Shown: in pieces, positions 4,362 through 59,917 of the stretch
How positions within the stretch are numbered: position 1 is the first letter of the stretch
Layout of the letters: each line of letters begins with the position of its first letter
Program-made: the position numbers and the translations under genes
The notes under the pieces: model-generated
The model's database searches: none
Seen by the model: the letters and a program-made list of their open reading frames with translations, nothing else
What the model was told of the DNA's origin: nothing
Virus record (IMG/VR): IMGVR_UViG_3300030104_000540
Span: 1-60,033 of that record
From: a virus
DNA: 60,033 nt
Reading direction: 5' to 3' (one strand)

Positions 4362-4389
4362 ATTATACTCTTTTTACGCAGCTTGTCAA
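4362..4389 (-). promoter_or_regulatory. Consensus sigma70 promoter, leftward
   Basis: On the complement TTGACA (4384-4389), 16 nt, TATAAT (4362-4367): all twelve hexamer bases match consensus. It faces the 4234-28 gene cluster. In a circular genome it would drive the entire late operon. The second hub has an equivalent at 58803-58831. Confidence 0.85.
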
Positions 4390-4817
4390 CCCCAAAACAA
4401 TTAAATAAGTATAATTTTGTAGTATTTAGTGTGGCAATGTTGCAACTGTTGCATACTTGCAACACTATTTAATGGAGTTATCTATGTGGTTACCACTTCA
4501 ATTTCCTAATCTGTGTATTTATACAAGCATACGTACCCCATAGGGTGGCATGGCTGTCGCCCTCCCCCTCAATCGTGGGCAGACGTGTGCATAATGTCCA
4601 GCCACACGCAGGAATTGAGCCGACCAAATGCTCATTCTCTCTGAGAATGAAAGTGCAATCAGACCAAAACCGACCCCTAACACTCAAACGGAGTGTTAAA
4701 GGTGGAGTTGCCGAGCCAAATGACCATCACAAAGTGATGAATTGGCAAAATTGCCGTTCAAACTACGTTTGGGAGTACAAAAAACCATACCCCCTCTTAA
4801 CAGCGAAGCTGTTACAA

Positions 4818-4831
4818 GTCCGATGTCGGAC
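4818..4831. repeat. Dispersed palindrome GTCCGA-TG-TCGGAC, copy 1
   Basis: Exact copy in the control region, preceded by AA. Two 6-bp half-sites around two bases, the form expected of a dimer-binding site. Confidence 0.85.
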
Positions 4832-4894
4832 AGTCTGCATCATCAGAAACAGATCAATCATAGATAGATTCTCTATCAAAAACTGACGGCAAAA

Positions 4895-5016
4895 TGACTC
4901 CGTTTGAACATTTTTTTATGGTTTCATTTGAAATGTTTTAAGCACCCTGTAACGAAGTGAAGGGTGTTAAAACCTTTCAATTAAATGAAACCAAAAAAAT
5001 GTAACAAACGGAGTCA
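4895..5016. promoter_or_regulatory. 122-nt long hairpin enclosing the ribosome site of the first early gene
   Basis: The outer arms are 12 bp and perfect (4895-4906 with 5005-5016). The next arm (4908-4929 with 4983-5002) pairs throughout except for a 2-nt bulge. The inner arm (about 4930-4948 with 4963-4980) pairs with one mismatch and one bulge. The loop carries AACGAAGTGA. The GGAG Shine-Dalgarno bases (5010-5013), six bases before the 5020 ATG, are paired with CTCC at 4898-4901, so in RNA this would hide the ribosome site. A role as a replication or cruciform element is also possible. Confidence 0.8.
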
Positions 5017-5019
5017 AAC

Positions 5020-5643
5020 ATGAAAAATTCAACAACAACCACTTCCAAATTAAACAACGGTTTAATTCAAAACTTAGCTAAAGCTAAGTCAAATGCTGAA
5101 AAAGGTTCAATTCTCTCTAGAGAGAATACACGTCTACTGTCTCTTGAAAAGAGACAGTTTGAAGCCCAAACTATGTTTGGAGGTTTTTGGTTTTCACTTG
5201 GAAAGCTCATCTCTGATGAGTTGAATGCAAGTGGAAAGTTGAGACTTTCCACAGCTCAGCTTAAAAAGCTGAATATCACTAAAATTGAACGTCAAAGACG
5301 TTCAGATGCTAAACTTTTCTTTGAAAATTATGATGCTTTACAATCTCTTACAAAGAGATTTAATAACGTATCAGCTTTGCTGAAAGAATTTAATAAACAG
5401 AACTCAAAGAGTTCTGAAACATCTACTAAAGTAGATGAAAAGTCATCTTCTAAAGAAGATGTTAAGTCCGATGTCGGACAAAGTGATAACAACGAAGTTG
5501 TTAAAGTAGGTACTTTTCAAGTACCTAATGTAAAGCAAATGGCTGAAGCCATTGTAATGCAAGCCATTGAAAATGGCTTAGAAGTTAAAGAGCTAAAAGC
5601 TCTTAACGCTGAAATTGCTAACCAAATCAAGGCTTTAGCTTAA
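5020..5643 (+). CDS. First early protein, 207 aa, gene composed of hairpins
   Basis: Unrecognised. The product is polar and helical: a basic N-terminal half (LSLEKRQFEAQTMFGGFWFS, then KKLNITKIERQRRSDAKLFF), a Ser/Lys/Asp-rich linker (about residues 125-155) and a C-terminal helical pair (VKQMAEAIVMQAIENG, then LKALNAEIANQIKAL). It is the first gene of the rightward transcript, where phages usually place host-takeover or anti-defence functions. The gene is most unusual at the DNA level: about twenty adjacent stem-loops fill it, nine of them back to back in 5398-5607. Some are in frame with the loop as a GAA codon (for example NNEVV and AIENG). The rightward gene at 59273 sits in the equivalent place and has a similar size and layout, but homology is uncertain. 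Confidence 0.75.
   Translation: MKNSTTTTSKLNNGLIQNLAKAKSNAEKGSILSRENTRLLSLEKRQFEAQTMFGGFWFSLGKLISDELNASGKLRLSTAQLKKLNITKIERQRRSDAKLFFENYDALQSLTKRFNNVSALLKEFNKQNSKSSETSTKVDEKSSSKEDVKSDVGQSDNNEVVKVGTFQVPNVKQMAEAIVMQAIENGLEVKELKALNAEIANQIKALA
5466..5479. repeat. Dispersed palindrome GTCCGA-TG-TCGGAC, copy 2
   Basis: Exact copy inside the 5020 gene, encoding part of the linker (KSDVGQ). It is one of nine consecutive hairpins there. Confidence 0.85.
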
Positions 5644-5726: not shown

Positions 5727-6017
5727 ATGAAAATTACATACTGTAAACCTGACCCATTACTTGATCCAAAAAATCGCTCTTACTATGTTATACCTAAGTA
5801 TAACCATAGTAAAGTCCACAAAGACTTTGCTGACTACGTCAGCCAGAAAGTAGACGTAGTCTACGTTAATGGCGAAGCCATTGAGTATGGAACAATGGAT
5901 TACTACGTAAAAGATGTAGTTAGCAATTTCCCTGCTCAGTATGAGCAGTTAGAAGTTAATCAGCAAATGAAAGAATTTGCTCAATATGACACAGGATTTA
6001 GACCTGTTATGAAATAA
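5727..6017 (+). CDS. Early protein of unknown function, 96 aa
   Basis: Good AAAGGA ribosome site. The product is acidic and aromatic-rich (MKITYCKPDPLLDPKNRSYY, then YVSQKVDVVYVNGEAIEYG). No family recognised. The gene carries several short hairpins (GCTGAC-TAC-GTCAGC, GTAGAC-GTA-GTCTAC, AATGGC-GAA-GCCATT, CTGCTCA-GTA-TGAGCAG), continuing the pattern of its upstream neighbour. It lies between a long intergenic hairpin and a terminator. Confidence 0.7.
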   Translation: MKITYCKPDPLLDPKNRSYYVIPKYNHSKVHKDFADYVSQKVDVVYVNGEAIEYGTMDYYVKDVVSNFPAQYEQLEVNQQMKEFAQYDTGFRPVMK

Positions 6018-6023
6018 CAGTAA

Positions 6024-6037
6024 GTCCGATGTCGGTC
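6024..6037. repeat. Dispersed palindrome, copy 3 (one mismatch)
   Basis: GTCCGA-TG-TCGGTC; the final arm has T for A. It lies seven bases after the stop of the 5727 gene and just before a terminator. Confidence 0.7.
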
Positions 6038-6048
6038 TTAACAGCAAG

Positions 6049-6078
6049 GCTGTAGCAGTAATGTTACAGCCTTTTTTT
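6049..6078 (+). terminator. Rho-independent terminator
   Basis: Stem GGCTGTA / TACAGCC around a 10-nt loop, followed by seven T. It ends the transcript after the 5727 gene. An alternative AACAGC-AAG-GCTGT hairpin overlaps its left arm and could compete with it. Confidence 0.75.
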
Positions 6079-6372: not shown

Positions 6373-6386
6373 GTCCGATGTCGGAC
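6373..6386. repeat. Dispersed palindrome GTCCGA-TG-TCGGAC, copy 4
   Basis: Exact copy, flanked by AA and ATAA, 20 bases before the start of the 6406 gene and just before its ribosome site. Confidence 0.85.
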
Positions 6387-6405: not shown

Positions 6406-7047
6406 ATGTTTAATACAGTTAAAGAAGCATGGGCTGAAGTGGGTGGCTTATCCAAGCCATCTAAAATGCCATCATTTGGTTATTCATTAAGTGCATTTAA
6501 ATGCAAGGTAGGTAGTAAGCTGAGGAATATTGCTAACTCTACATGTAGTGATTGCTATGCATTGAAGGGAAGGTATGTCTTCCCCAATGTACAAGAAGCA
6601 TTGGATAGGAGAATGGATAGGCTATTGAACAATCCTAATTGGATTGAAGCTATGTCATTTTTAATCAATCACTATTCCACTAAAGGTGGAGTGTTTAGGT
6701 GGCATGATAGTGGAGATTTACAATCTCTTGATCACCTACAAAAGATTGTAAAAGTTGCTGAGCTTACACCTAGTGTAAGGCATTGGCTACCAACAAGAGA
6801 GGTAGCAATGGTGCGAGATTACCAAAAGCAATACGGAGAGTTTCCTAGCAACTTAGTTGTTAGGATAAGTGCTACTATGATTAATGGTTTACCCCATAAG
6901 TTTCATAGGCATACTAGCACAGTATCAACAGCCAAAGATTTTGATTTGGGTTGGACTTGTCCTGCTAGTAAACAAGGTAACAAGTGTGACACGTGTCGTG
7001 CTTGTTGGGATAGTAATGTTGAAAATATTACTTACCCTTTACATTAA
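6406..7047 (+). CDS. Gp88-like cysteine-rich phage protein
   Basis: 213 aa. I recognise the mycobacteriophage gene-88 family layout: KMPSFGYSLSAFKCKVGSKL, then CSDCYALKGRY, then FRWHDSGDLQS and VRHWLPTRE, ending in a cysteine cluster (WTCPASKQGNKCDTCRACWD). About seven cysteines, some in C-x2-C pairs, suggest a bound metal or iron-sulphur site. The biochemical role of the family is not established as far as I know. It is widespread in phages as a lone accessory gene. Hairpins continue in the DNA (GAGATT-TAC-AATCTC, CTTACAC-CTA-GTGTAAG). Confidence 0.75.
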   Translation: MFNTVKEAWAEVGGLSKPSKMPSFGYSLSAFKCKVGSKLRNIANSTCSDCYALKGRYVFPNVQEALDRRMDRLLNNPNWIEAMSFLINHYSTKGGVFRWHDSGDLQSLDHLQKIVKVAELTPSVRHWLPTREVAMVRDYQKQYGEFPSNLVVRISATMINGLPHKFHRHTSTVSTAKDFDLGWTCPASKQGNKCDTCRACWDSNVENITYPLH

Positions 7048-7081: not shown

Positions 7082-7095
7082 GTCCGATGTCGGAC
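7082..7095. repeat. Dispersed palindrome GTCCGA-TG-TCGGAC, copy 5
   Basis: Exact copy with the same AA / ATAA flanks, seven bases before the AAAGGAG ribosome site of the next gene. Confidence 0.85.
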
Positions 7096-7117: not shown

Positions 7118-7390
7118 ATGTTTTTCTTATATTCGTCTAAATTAACTAACGATAAGATGGGAGTAAGACGTAGTCTTATTCTTGAAATTAATGATGTCAA
7201 AGTTATCAATTTTAAAACTATGACATATTGGAGAAAGAGATTGTTCTCTTACTCTAGAACACTCAACAAGCCTGTGGGCTTTACTCAAGGTGATTGCTTT
7301 AACAGTTATCACTTCTTTAACTTCACATTACATGTGGAGAAAAGAAGAAACAGGCAATCTGTGAGAAAGCTGTGGCACTTCGCAGGTTAA
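7118..7390 (+). CDS. Early protein of unknown function, 90 aa
   Basis: The ATG at 7118 is chosen because AAAGGAG lies about eight bases upstream; an in-frame TTG at 7100 would place the ribosome site inside the gene. The product is basic and aromatic (FLYSSKLTNDKMGVRRSLIL, then YHFFNFTLHVEKRRNRQSVR). It could be a small DNA-binding or inhibitor protein; no family recognised. Short hairpins such as TAAGAC-GTA-GTCTTA persist. Confidence 0.65.
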   Translation: MFFLYSSKLTNDKMGVRRSLILEINDVKVINFKTMTYWRKRLFSYSRTLNKPVGFTQGDCFNSYHFFNFTLHVEKRRNRQSVRKLWHFAG

Positions 7391-8856: not shown

Positions 8857-9077
8857 TGGAAGAAGAAATTATTGACATGCTAAACATACAGCATAGAATA
8901 GAAGAGTTAATGCAAGAGGGCAAGGCATCAAAACTCAGAGGGTGGTCAGCGAGAGACATTTCAGATCGCATCACCTCTGAGTGGCGAGACGAGAAAGCAG
9001 GAGAGTATGCTTTCAAGTACATAGCCTACAATTATTCAACAGCTAAGTCCGACATCGGACATAAGAAAGGAGACTAA
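8856..9077 (+). CDS. Unknown small helical protein, 73 aa
   Basis: MEEEIIDMLNIQHRIEELMQ, then a basic segment (KASKLRGWSARDISDRI). The helix-rich charged sequence could fold as a small DNA-mimic or DNA-binding protein. The last codons (KSDIGHKKGD) are encoded by palindrome copy 6 and by the ribosome site of the next gene. Confidence 0.55.
   Translation: MEEEIIDMLNIQHRIEELMQEGKASKLRGWSARDISDRITSEWRDEKAGEYAFKYIAYNYSTAKSDIGHKKGD
9047..9060. repeat. Dispersed palindrome GTCCGA-CA-TCGGAC, copy 6 (opposite orientation)
   Basis: The two central bases are the complement of those in copies 1-5; the half-sites are identical. The same AA / ATAA flanks and a following AAAGGAG are kept, as in copies 4 and 5. 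Confidence 0.85.
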
Positions 9078-9078
9078 C

Positions 9079-9444
9079 ATGAAAGCATATTACATAGACC
9101 CAATACTACAGTTTGTAGCAGAGGTAGACTTTATACCTGAATCAAACCTGCACGGATTTAGAAAGATATATGAGTGGATTGATGCAGGAACATTTGATGT
9201 AGTCAATCTCAATAGTTACGGAGATGGTATGTACGTTGATGATGAGGGATTACTCAAGAGCAGTAACCATTTCTTTAAAGTTCCTGTGTGGAATGGCGAA
9301 GAGTATGTCCAGCAGATGTATGCAGGTAAGGCACTCATACTAGGTGTAGATAGTGATGGAGACAGCGATGATGTAAAAGGTTTATCTTTTAAATTGTTGC
9401 AAGATAGAATAGAATTTTTAGGAGAGAAGGAGATACGACAATGA
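9079..9444 (+). CDS. DUF3846-like protein, 121 aa
   Basis: Contains DVVNLNSYGDGMYVDDEGLL, a Phe/Asn turn and AGKALILGVDSDGD, which fits the DUF3846 plan (a short beta domain with a conserved Asp-Glu-Gly and an AG-x-A-x-x-x-G strand). DUF3846 occurs in phages and plasmids beside DNA-modification genes. Here it directly precedes the cytosine methyltransferase and overlaps it by 4 bases (ATGA). Biochemical role unknown. Confidence 0.55.
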   Translation: MKAYYIDPILQFVAEVDFIPESNLHGFRKIYEWIDAGTFDVVNLNSYGDGMYVDDEGLLKSSNHFFKVPVWNGEEYVQQMYAGKALILGVDSDGDSDDVKGLSFKLLQDRIEFLGEKEIRQ

Positions 9445-12896: not shown

Positions 12897-13263
12897 TACA
12901 TGGACAAAGGATGAAGTTGTTGCATTTTTGCAACATGCTTATAGTAAATTTGAATACAGAAATGTTGGTGTTATCTCACAAATTATCTATGAACTACAGC
13001 CACCACGATTAGAATACAAAGATATATTTAAGTGGACATGGAGTGACATAGACGATGAGTGGGATGCAGGTTTGTTGCATACCCTTGAACAGCAGAGGAA
13101 TGACTTTGGTTTTCAAGATTATATCGCACCACAAATCAGACCAATCAAAGGCGAGTATGTACCTTATACTAAATTTAGATTCTCTAAAGTAGCACGAAGA
13201 ATTATTAATGACACACCTACACTGAGAAAAGATTTACGTATGAGGTACTTGCCTTTAAGTTAA
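12868..13263 (+). CDS. Possible truncated tyrosine recombinase (integrase remnant)
   Basis: 131 aa. WTKDEVVAFLQHAYSKFEYR, NVGVISQIIYELQ, WTWSDIDDEWD, then QQRNDFGFQDYIAP and YVPYTKFRFSKVARRI follow the order of the catalytic-domain start in marine podovirus integrases as I remember them. The arm and core-binding domains are missing, the box I arginine region is altered, and the protein ends before the H-x-x-R and tyrosine boxes, so recombination is not expected. The alternative is an unrelated protein with chance similarity. Confidence 0.45.
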   Translation: MKRLGNVHTNTWTKDEVVAFLQHAYSKFEYRNVGVISQIIYELQPPRLEYKDIFKWTWSDIDDEWDAGLLHTLEQQRNDFGFQDYIAPQIRPIKGEYVPYTKFRFSKVARRIINDTPTLRKDLRMRYLPLS

Positions 13264-59097: not shown

Positions 59098-59114
59098 GGT
59101 TAGAAATTCTAACC
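59098..59114. repeat. 17-bp palindrome GGTTAGAAATTCTAACC, copy 1
   Basis: Two 8-bp half-sites around one base, 80 bases before the rightward promoter. The same 17 bases occur at 59686-59702. Confidence 0.8.
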
Positions 59115-59272: not shown

Positions 59273-59917
59273 ATGTTAAATATTATTAAAGGTTTTGTAG
59301 CACCTAAAGCTACTCAAGAGCGTGAATCATTTACTATTGTTTCTAATTACTTTAATTCATTGGATACAATTAGAGGGAATGAGGAACATTTTATTTATGA
59401 AGGCAATCTTATTAATTCTATTAAGAATGTTAAAGGTAAGAAAAAAGAAAAGAGAATGAATGATTTAAACCTTTATAAATATACTAAATATGAAAGGCAT
59501 TACTTAGGTAAGATTGCCAACAATAAAAAAGCATTTTTGGCTTATATTGCTAGTTATCCAACGGATACAAGGCTACCTAGTTTTGAGACTATTTATAATA
59601 ATAGTGTTAAAGAATATGACGAAAATGGTAAGAAGAAACCTTCTAACCCAATTATGACAGGTGAGAAGAATACACCTAAAAATCAGGTTAGAAATTCTAA
59701 CCCAAAAGTTGACAAGTCAGAAGATAAGACAACAGTAGATTATAAAGATAATCATGAGACTTTAGAGGAAGCTGTTGAGACTTGTGTTAGTATGCTTTTA
59801 GATTTTGGTGCAACTGAAGCTGAGATTGCTAACCTAGTTATTAAGTCATTACAGAAAAGAAATAAAAAGTTAATGACTACATCAAATAAAAAGACAATAG
59901 CTTTTAAAGTAGCTTAA
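59273..59917 (+). CDS. Rightward early-type protein, 214 aa
   Basis: The ATG at 59273 follows AAAGGA by six bases. Charged, helical protein: MLNIIKGFVAPKATQERESF, NVKGKKKEKRMNDLNLYKYT, a low-complexity middle (KKKPSNPIMTGEKNTPKNQV) and a C-terminal helix pair (EEAVETCVSMLLDFGATEAE, then IANLVIKSLQKR). Size, polar linker, C-terminal helices and place next to a control region mirror the 5020 gene, so it may be its counterpart. Function unknown. Confidence 0.65.
   Translation: MLNIIKGFVAPKATQERESFTIVSNYFNSLDTIRGNEEHFIYEGNLINSIKNVKGKKKEKRMNDLNLYKYTKYERHYLGKIANNKKAFLAYIASYPTDTRLPSFETIYNNSVKEYDENGKKKPSNPIMTGEKNTPKNQVRNSNPKVDKSEDKTTVDYKDNHETLEEAVETCVSMLLDFGATEAEIANLVIKSLQKRNKKLMTTSNKKTIAFKVA
59686..59702. 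repeat. 17-bp palindrome GGTTAGAAATTCTAACC, copy 2
   Basis: Identical to copy 1 but inside the coding sequence of the 59273 gene (linker region). A partial TTCTAACC-CAATTATG stretch nearby (59641) resembles the right flank of copy 1 (TTCTAACCGAATTATG). Confidence 0.8.

Follow-up and report, generated by a model that had tools for sequence, protein, structure and literature searches.

The 60,033-nucleotide (nt) stretch analyzed here, referred to as the window, is the IMG/VR virus record IMGVR_UViG_3300030104_000540, and the feature under study is an open reading frame (ORF) at positions 5020-5643 that encodes a protein while being densely filled with small hairpins. The window carries terminase, portal and DNA polymerase genes, indicating a double-stranded DNA (dsDNA) tailed phage, together with genes for a DnaB-type helicase, a class II-type ribonucleotide reductase and a gp88-like protein. 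Its family-A DNA polymerase contains an inserted DnaJ zinc-finger domain, a layout that is the signature of HMO-2011-type phages; PMC9038755, which reports this signature, describes the type as dominant in the ocean and spread widely through it. Because of this layout and of the 62-63% identity between its polymerase and those of HMO-2011, CRP-1 and CRP-345, the phage is assigned to the HMO-2011-type marine phages. The ORF is the first rightward one after a non-coding divergent region of ~1 kb, which fits its designation as the first early gene in the first-pass annotation, and in HMO-2011 and CRP-1 the homologue occupies the same first rightward position.

Hairpins and selection in the first rightward gene

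A greedy search for stems of at least 5 base pairs (bp) with loops of 3-4 nt, applied to 621 nt of the ORF, yields 21 non-overlapping hairpins, and the 624 nt of the gene hold 20 short-spaced inverted-repeat pairs.

5020-5643, plus strand: gene for a 207-residue protein predicted to be all-helical; densest section of the array, with 21 non-overlapping hairpins
5048-5067, 5072-5089, 5110-5127, 5136-5158, 5166-5180, 5206-5220, 5231-5252, plus strand: gene hairpins 1-7
5256-5272, 5286-5304, 5315-5327, 5342-5360, 5371-5383, 5398-5416, 5420-5437, plus strand: gene hairpins 8-14
5444-5461, 5466-5479, 5487-5503, 5507-5527, 5538-5553, 5561-5579, 5588-5604, plus strand: gene hairpins 15-21

The first-pass annotation had counted about twenty inverted repeats in the gene, and both the count and the hairpins it quoted hold, each of these lying at most 1 nt from where it had been placed. 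The palindrome noted at 5111-5126 extends to an 18-nt perfect palindrome at 5110-5127; the stems measure 10 bp at 5136-5158, 9 bp at 5231-5252, 7 bp at 5256-5272, and 8 bp at 5286-5304 (noted as 5287-5303), 5342-5360, 5398-5416 and 5561-5579. The gene contains 24 raw hairpin matches vs 5.8 expected from synonymous-codon shuffles; with stems of at least 6 bp, 21 hairpins are present vs 2.5 expected, and the maximum reached by any of 200 shuffles is 8. The hairpins appear in the predicted mRNA fold, whose minimum free energy is -196.6 kcal/mol vs -127.6 +/- 5.6 kcal/mol in dinucleotide shuffles, and the folding excess is similar on both strands (z-scores of -12.4 and -12.3). The kilobase between 5 and 6 kb holds 19 of the 70 perfect hairpins with stems of at least 7 bp in the whole window, and among the window genes tested a hairpin excess of z >3 is confined to the ORFs starting at 5020, 5727 and 6406.

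The geometry of the hairpins is narrowly tuned. The excess rises from 2.7-fold for stems of 5 bp to 8.7-fold at 6 and 13.8-fold at 7, falls to 6.4-fold at 8, and no stem exceeds 10 bp; loops are in excess at only ~2-5 nt with a peak at 3, triloops being 28.6-fold enriched in the gene and loops of at least 6 nt showing essentially no enrichment there. A typical hairpin thus has 5-7 perfect Watson-Crick pairs closed by a 3-4-nt loop and recurs every 25-40 nt where the array is densest, with stem sequences that are unrelated from one hairpin to the next.

The same excess characterizes the gene family. In 54 non-redundant homologues, each compared with 100 synonymous shuffles, 777 hairpins are observed vs 172.6 expected, and 50 of the 54 exceed every one of their shuffles; the randomization proposed in the first-pass annotation therefore leaves the excess unexplained by the protein in these 50. 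Synonymous third-position change is 0.091 in stems vs 0.177 outside them across 27 disjoint pairs of relatives, a safer figure than the many-sequence pair counts, which reuse sequences. At 60-80% identity, 48% of the double-changed stem pairs are still Watson-Crick, vs 23-29% in controls in which the partner was slid by 1-3 or 30 positions. At 90-99% identity, 200 single changes are found vs 37 Watson-Crick double changes, a ratio of broken over compensated pairs of ~5:1. Covariation was judged hairpin by hairpin, RNAalifold on all leaders jointly having given little structure owing to gaps. The ratio of non-synonymous to synonymous substitution rates (dN/dS) of the gene is 0.10-0.41; from this ratio and the conservation of stems it follows that protein and pairing are both maintained. 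The proposed coexistence of a protein code with a structural one is thus borne out by dN/dS, by the synonymous rates in stems and by the pairing-preserving double changes. The gene may also act as nucleic acid, as the first-pass annotation suggested, in the form of mRNA or of single-stranded or cruciform DNA. The contrary pattern, a retained protein with hairpins decaying neutrally, was not found, the excess being largely gone only in a small clade of three loci (L007, L008 and L020).

Extent of the array and the dispersed GTCC palindrome

The array had been described as coextensive with the gene, which is indeed its densest part; this extent is too narrow, given that hairpins begin ~450 nt upstream and weaken over ~3.5 kb downstream. 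Averaged over the 54 loci, the excess starts sharply at ~450 nt ahead of the gene, keeps a plateau of 9-14-fold until ~+800, and then declines to ~1.2-fold at 3.6 kb, while the genes of the divergent leftward operon show an excess of only 1.23-fold. The profile is therefore transcript-shaped, and a DNA strand displaced in one direction would look alike. The elements surrounding the gene are as follows.

4362-4389, minus strand: perfect sigma-70 consensus promoter, TTGACA-16-TATAAT, of the leftward operon
4484-4519, plus strand: conserved upstream motif block, TGTGGTTACCAC ... CTAATCTGTGTATT in its window form, at family position ~-590 to -545
4540-5019, plus strand: non-coding leader and start of the array, with hairpins including 4632-4650, 4678-4698 and 4798-4814
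4895-5017, plus strand: long leader hairpin, -56.3 kcal/mol, z -10.9, with equivalents in relatives
5727-6017, plus strand: second early ORF, hairpin-enriched (7 vs 1.9 expected, z 4.6)
6046-6073, sense strand: strong intrinsic-terminator-like hairpin, 12 nt past a variant GTCC palindrome
6406-7047, plus strand: gp88-like early gene (PF17338), hairpin-enriched (10 vs 3.3, z 4.0)

The motif block at 4484-4519 lies just ahead of the array and may represent the rightward promoter. Near-perfect equivalents of the leftward sigma-70 promoter occur at ~-700 in many relatives, and no equally good rightward one was seen. Left of the control region, two relatives carry small opposite-strand ORFs with an unusual hairpin excess of their own (L069, 2402-2686, z 6.0; L149, 2351-2644, z 3.7; both minus strand).

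In the family alignment the leader of the window is a divergent version, and the leaders of most relatives contain strongly conserved blocks, e.g. CAACTGTTATGGTATCAGTTGCCA, GAAACGGCAGGGGCAGAGGAT and CACGAGTTTNGCGCAC. Such blocks (in the HMO-2011 leader, at ~5648-5900 of L002, and at equivalent places in most relatives) resemble structured non-coding RNA; a search of Rfam returned no gathering match in the window and, for eight relatives, nothing beyond a chance-level match to MIR1120, so that neither the blocks nor the long leader hairpin corresponds to an Rfam family. The basal stem of the long leader hairpin covers the Shine-Dalgarno region ACGGAGTC just ahead of the ATG at 5020. In most relatives this hairpin ends at the Shine-Dalgarno sequence, whereas the window form is extended so that the Shine-Dalgarno sequence itself is paired.

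The hairpins of the gene lack the combination of a G+C-rich stem and a U run that defines an intrinsic terminator: a T run accompanies them only weakly, at 5166-5180, and the sole strong sense-strand candidate, at 6046-6073, lies outside the gene. The early operons of relatives contain almost no intrinsic terminators. A small hairpin, ACAGC AAG GCTGT, overlaps the 5' arm of the 6046 terminator in an attenuator-like manner; attenuation by this overlap was rejected, the arrangement being present in the window only and absent in relatives.

Superimposed on the generic hairpins is a palindrome of conserved sequence, GTCCRNNNNYGGAC, hereafter the GTCC palindrome. It is present in 54 of 54 loci with a mean of 4.6 copies, a set of which part was found via the palindrome itself and most loci, as well as all isolates, independently of it. 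Usually one copy lies in the leader and others follow every 0.3-1 kb downstream of the gene; most loci also have one copy within the gene, in frame as K-S-D/N-V-G. Palindrome cores are of the same type in 93% of comparisons within a genome vs 48% between loci, 243 of 251 copies have a Watson-Crick inner pair, and core orientation is skewed (GATGTC 93 vs GACATC 4; AATGTT 52 vs AACATT 15). The copies in the window, all on the plus strand, are listed below.

4818-4831: GTCCGATGTCGGAC, leader copy
5466-5479: GTCCGATGTCGGAC, within the gene, translated in frame as K-S-D-V-G in a linker predicted to be disordered
6024-6037: variant palindrome GTCCGATGTCGGTC, 12 nt ahead of the intrinsic-terminator-like hairpin
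6373-6386: GTCCGATGTCGGAC, shortly ahead of the gp88-like gene
7082-7095: GTCCGATGTCGGAC, ahead of the ORF at 7118
9047-9060: GTCCGACATCGGAC, core reversed, ahead of the ORF at 9079

In dispersed palindromic repeats of the Rickettsia type, which are inserted in genes, the copies share one sequence; here the generic hairpins differ from one another, while GTCCRNNNNYGGAC is shared within a genome and has a fixed, in-frame position in the gene. The GTCC palindrome looks like a specific site of the same system as the array.

The protein family and its link to the array

The first homologues obtained were one close relative with 92% amino-acid identity and the HMO-2011 protein, which is 32% identical. 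The palindrome AAGTCCGATGTCGGAC, present in 5 copies in the early region, was then used as a scan query; the 55 viral stretches recovered in this way contain ~24 more distinct homologues, and profile searches gave 206 and 22 matching stretches. The family corresponds to HMO-2011 gp74 and CRP-1 gp01, to which the window protein is matched by tblastn, by hidden Markov model and by its first rightward early position; in HMO-2011, CRP-1 and CRP-345 the product of the gene is listed as a hypothetical protein without annotation. The statement in the first-pass annotation that the product has no family agrees with searches of Pfam, PHROGs, PDB (sequence and fold) and BFVD, which gave no match beyond the HMO-2011 homologue, and no relatives were found in bacterial genomes. 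The first ORFs of CRP-207, CRP-603 and CRP-2 were considered as remote homologues and rejected after a negative remote-homology search.

Structural modeling predicts an all-helical protein with a helix-turn-helix (HTH)-like helix pair at residues 78-84 and 91-102, bearing a conserved KRRR (K-R/Q-R-R) patch, followed by a linker predicted to be disordered (133-166) and, at the C terminus, a helical hairpin. In the clade of L007, L008 and L020 the protein is without a short conserved segment around RFxxxTKADG.

The gene and the array co-occur strictly among ten HMO-2011-type isolates, which form clades and thus do not represent ten independent events. In the three isolates with the gene, HMO-2011, CRP-1 and CRP-345, 28, 28 and 16 hairpins are present vs 2.5, 3.8 and 4.2 expected; in the seven without it (CRP-2, CRP-207, CRP-603, CRP-3, CRP-212, CRP-738 and HTVC033P), 1-4 are present vs 1.9-4.3 expected. 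The GTCC palindrome follows the same division, with 4-5 copies in isolates carrying the gene and 0-1 (an unrelated match) in those lacking it. CRP-1, with gene and array, and CRP-2, with neither, share the host strain FZCC0023; these opposite states on one host mean that the host fails to explain the array. The gene, or something co-inherited with it, accounts for the array. The two phages also make the role of the array directly testable on a single host strain.

Possible roles of the array

We regard it as close to an even call that the protein is inherited together with the sequence-independent, shape-defined hairpins of its gene and early operon as a single regulatory system, in which the message would serve as both template and binding scaffold and the genome-matched GTCC hairpins would be specific anchors. 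A more specific version, the best supported of the explanations compared but put forward tentatively, is that the early transcript offers its own protein product a series of sites defined by shape, which would serve anti-termination or protection. The rightward early transcript would then constitute an array of small structural sites over the leader and the first gene, thinner over the next genes, and its likeliest partner would be the all-helical, Arg/Lys-patched protein encoded by the first gene itself. This protein would respond to the shape of a hairpin and not to the sequence of its stem, and would cover the early message from which it is translated; the GTCCRNNNNYGGAC hairpins, conserved in sequence, would give it strong binding positions at intervals. 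Such an RNA-protein particle might sustain early transcription and the message, through anti-termination, protection from decay or both, and the long hairpin at the start codon could provide autogenous control.

The sense strand is implicated by the pairs beside the loop, which were examined by a near-loop mismatch test that replaces a seven-base single-mismatch test confounded by perfect short stems extended past the mismatch. In the downstream region G-U is tolerated at these positions (99 vs 64.9 expected) and A-C is not (38 vs 55.8), and this preference for G-U over A-C beside the loop is a sense-strand signal that supports RNA as the acting molecule. In the gene both are depleted, A-C more strongly (G-U 27 vs 40.6 expected; A-C 17 vs 40.5), as are all internal interruptions near the loop.

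Several observations weigh against the proposal of a protein-coated message. G-U pairs are scarce in the 7-bp stems of the gene (2 vs 11 expected) and make up 4.6% of double-changed pairs vs 8-11% in controls, a scarcity that is unusual for ordinary structured RNA. The G+C content of stems is barely above background, so raw stability looks unlikely as the target; what is kept seems to be complementarity of set size, not stability. The predicted HTH-like element would suit DNA no less than RNA. The clade of L007, L008 and L020 keeps both the protein and the GTCC palindromes with little array, and the isolate comparison carries the weight of clades rather than of ten separate cases. Asymmetry of loop sequences between the strands was rejected as proof of RNA, being mostly predicted by coding. 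A pyrimidine-purine closing pair was likewise rejected as proof of DNA-type hairpins: it closes 91% of gene triloops, 71% in codon-shuffled genes and 58% in the downstream region.

The strongest rival, which we rate as rather unlikely, places the structure in DNA: the hairpins would fold in single-stranded or supercoiled DNA as sites of replication initiation or priming, for example on the strand displaced when an R-loop forms or when replication proceeds in one direction from the divergent control region. Strict Watson-Crick pairing with scarce G-U is in keeping with such a role, the leader having 3 G-U and 10 A-C among 614 pair cells, and the short 3-4-nt loops, the stems without strong G+C enrichment, the HTH-like protein and the occasional reversal of palindrome cores are in line with it. 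The folding excess is equal on both strands across the family (mean z -4.9 and -4.7), and a displaced strand also fits the one-directional gradient from the control region. Yet the excess of G-U over A-C near downstream loops and the mostly single orientation of the GTCC core speak against folding at the DNA level, long structured leader elements ending at the Shine-Dalgarno sequence are more typical of RNA, and array-free phages of the same type evidently replicate.

It also seems unlikely that the array is general mRNA structure with no dedicated protein, a dense fold resisting Rho, endonucleases, R-loops or an RNA-targeting defence, comparable to the role suggested for ordered genome-scale structure in RNA viruses. 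Its span over the leader and coding part of the first message, its fading with distance and its presence in the predicted mRNA fold suit this explanation; however, G+C-rich stems, G-U tolerance and loops of 5-8 nt would be expected and none of them is observed, and both the joint absence of array and gene on the same host and the genome-matched GTCC element are left unexplained. A functionless, mutational origin is very improbable. Hairpin-templated strand switching (quasi-palindrome correction) by an unusual phage polymerase near an origin would yield perfect pairing, small loops, strand symmetry and local clustering, but copying has no limit corresponding to the end of stems at 7-10 bp, the ~5:1 ratio of broken to compensated pairs at 90-99% identity shows that the arms are not rapidly homogenized, synonymous sites in stems are conserved, and arrays are missing from HMO-2011-type phages that have this kind of polymerase and lack the gene. 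An origin by chance, or as a side effect of the composition in amino acids and codons, for which only some closing-pair and loop preferences recurring in codon-shuffled genes speak, has a negligible probability in view of 777 vs 173 hairpins at the same proteins and codon usage and of an array that extends into the non-coding leader.

Among the closest counterparts to the proposed protein-bound message is the N/boxB system of phage lambda, where a first early gene follows a structured, RNase III-controlled leader and a basic helical protein acts with small hairpins that have purine-rich loops. As in lambda, a first early gene stands here behind a structured leader with a long hairpin beside the start codon, small hairpins have purine-rich loops, and a basic helical protein is suspected to act on the transcript that encodes it. 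Each nut site of lambda contains a single boxB of conserved sequence and loop, whereas dozens of hairpins with unrelated stems, mostly in coding sequence, are found here; a single sequence-conserved boxB-like element was not found, as the generic stems differ and the conserved GTCC element comes in several copies. Searches of Pfam and PHROGs with 48 family members gave no N-type match and no sequence relation to lambda N. In phage N4, DNA hairpins of 5-7 bp with 3-nt loops are promoters of the virion RNA polymerase in early regions; N4 pairs a giant virion polymerase with a few sequence-specific promoters, unlike the dozens of arbitrary-sequence hairpins of the window, where the largest ORF encodes 1154 residues and none of the seven large late ORFs scanned matches an RNA polymerase. 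No comparable regulatory system of a protein and shape-defined hairpins is known to us.

RNA viruses are known to superimpose a structural code on a protein code, and phage lambda provides known cases of single hairpin sites in phage early operons. The genome-scale ordered structure of RNA viruses is similar in that coding sequence is under joint protein and pairing constraint over kilobases; the present case differs in being a dsDNA phage whose structure is limited to one early transcript, has a tuned 5-7-bp/3-4-nt geometry and tracks one gene. What appears to be new is a dense, size-tuned array of sequence-independent hairpins that lies within a dsDNA phage gene and is inherited together with it. 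If true, it would be a clear natural case of a DNA-virus sequence carrying a protein code together with a dense structural code, and if the protein reads hairpin shape over sequence, this would constitute a new mode of phage gene control. Structure-based recognition of small triloop hairpins is documented for Roquin and constitutive decay elements (PMC5603727, PMC6294493), which serve as an analogy only, being eukaryotic elements of 3' untranslated regions with few copies per mRNA; no relation is claimed. In PMC9038755 and PMC6918029, which describe HMO-2011-type phages, a term search turned up no discussion of palindromes or stem-loops, and HMO-2011 was not found together with the word hairpin in the open-access literature searched. 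The same open-access literature, outside which most subscription journals lie, gave no precedent for a dense, size-tuned, sequence-independent array co-inherited with a dsDNA phage gene.

Other repeats in the window lie away from the early region. Two alike hairpins, TGTTGCATACTTGCAACA and TGTTGCATTTTTGCAACA, are found far apart at 4447-4464 and 12918-12935, and close to the record's end two copies of a 17-nt palindrome, GGTTAGAAATTCTAACC, lie 588 nt apart at 59098-59114 and 59686-59702.
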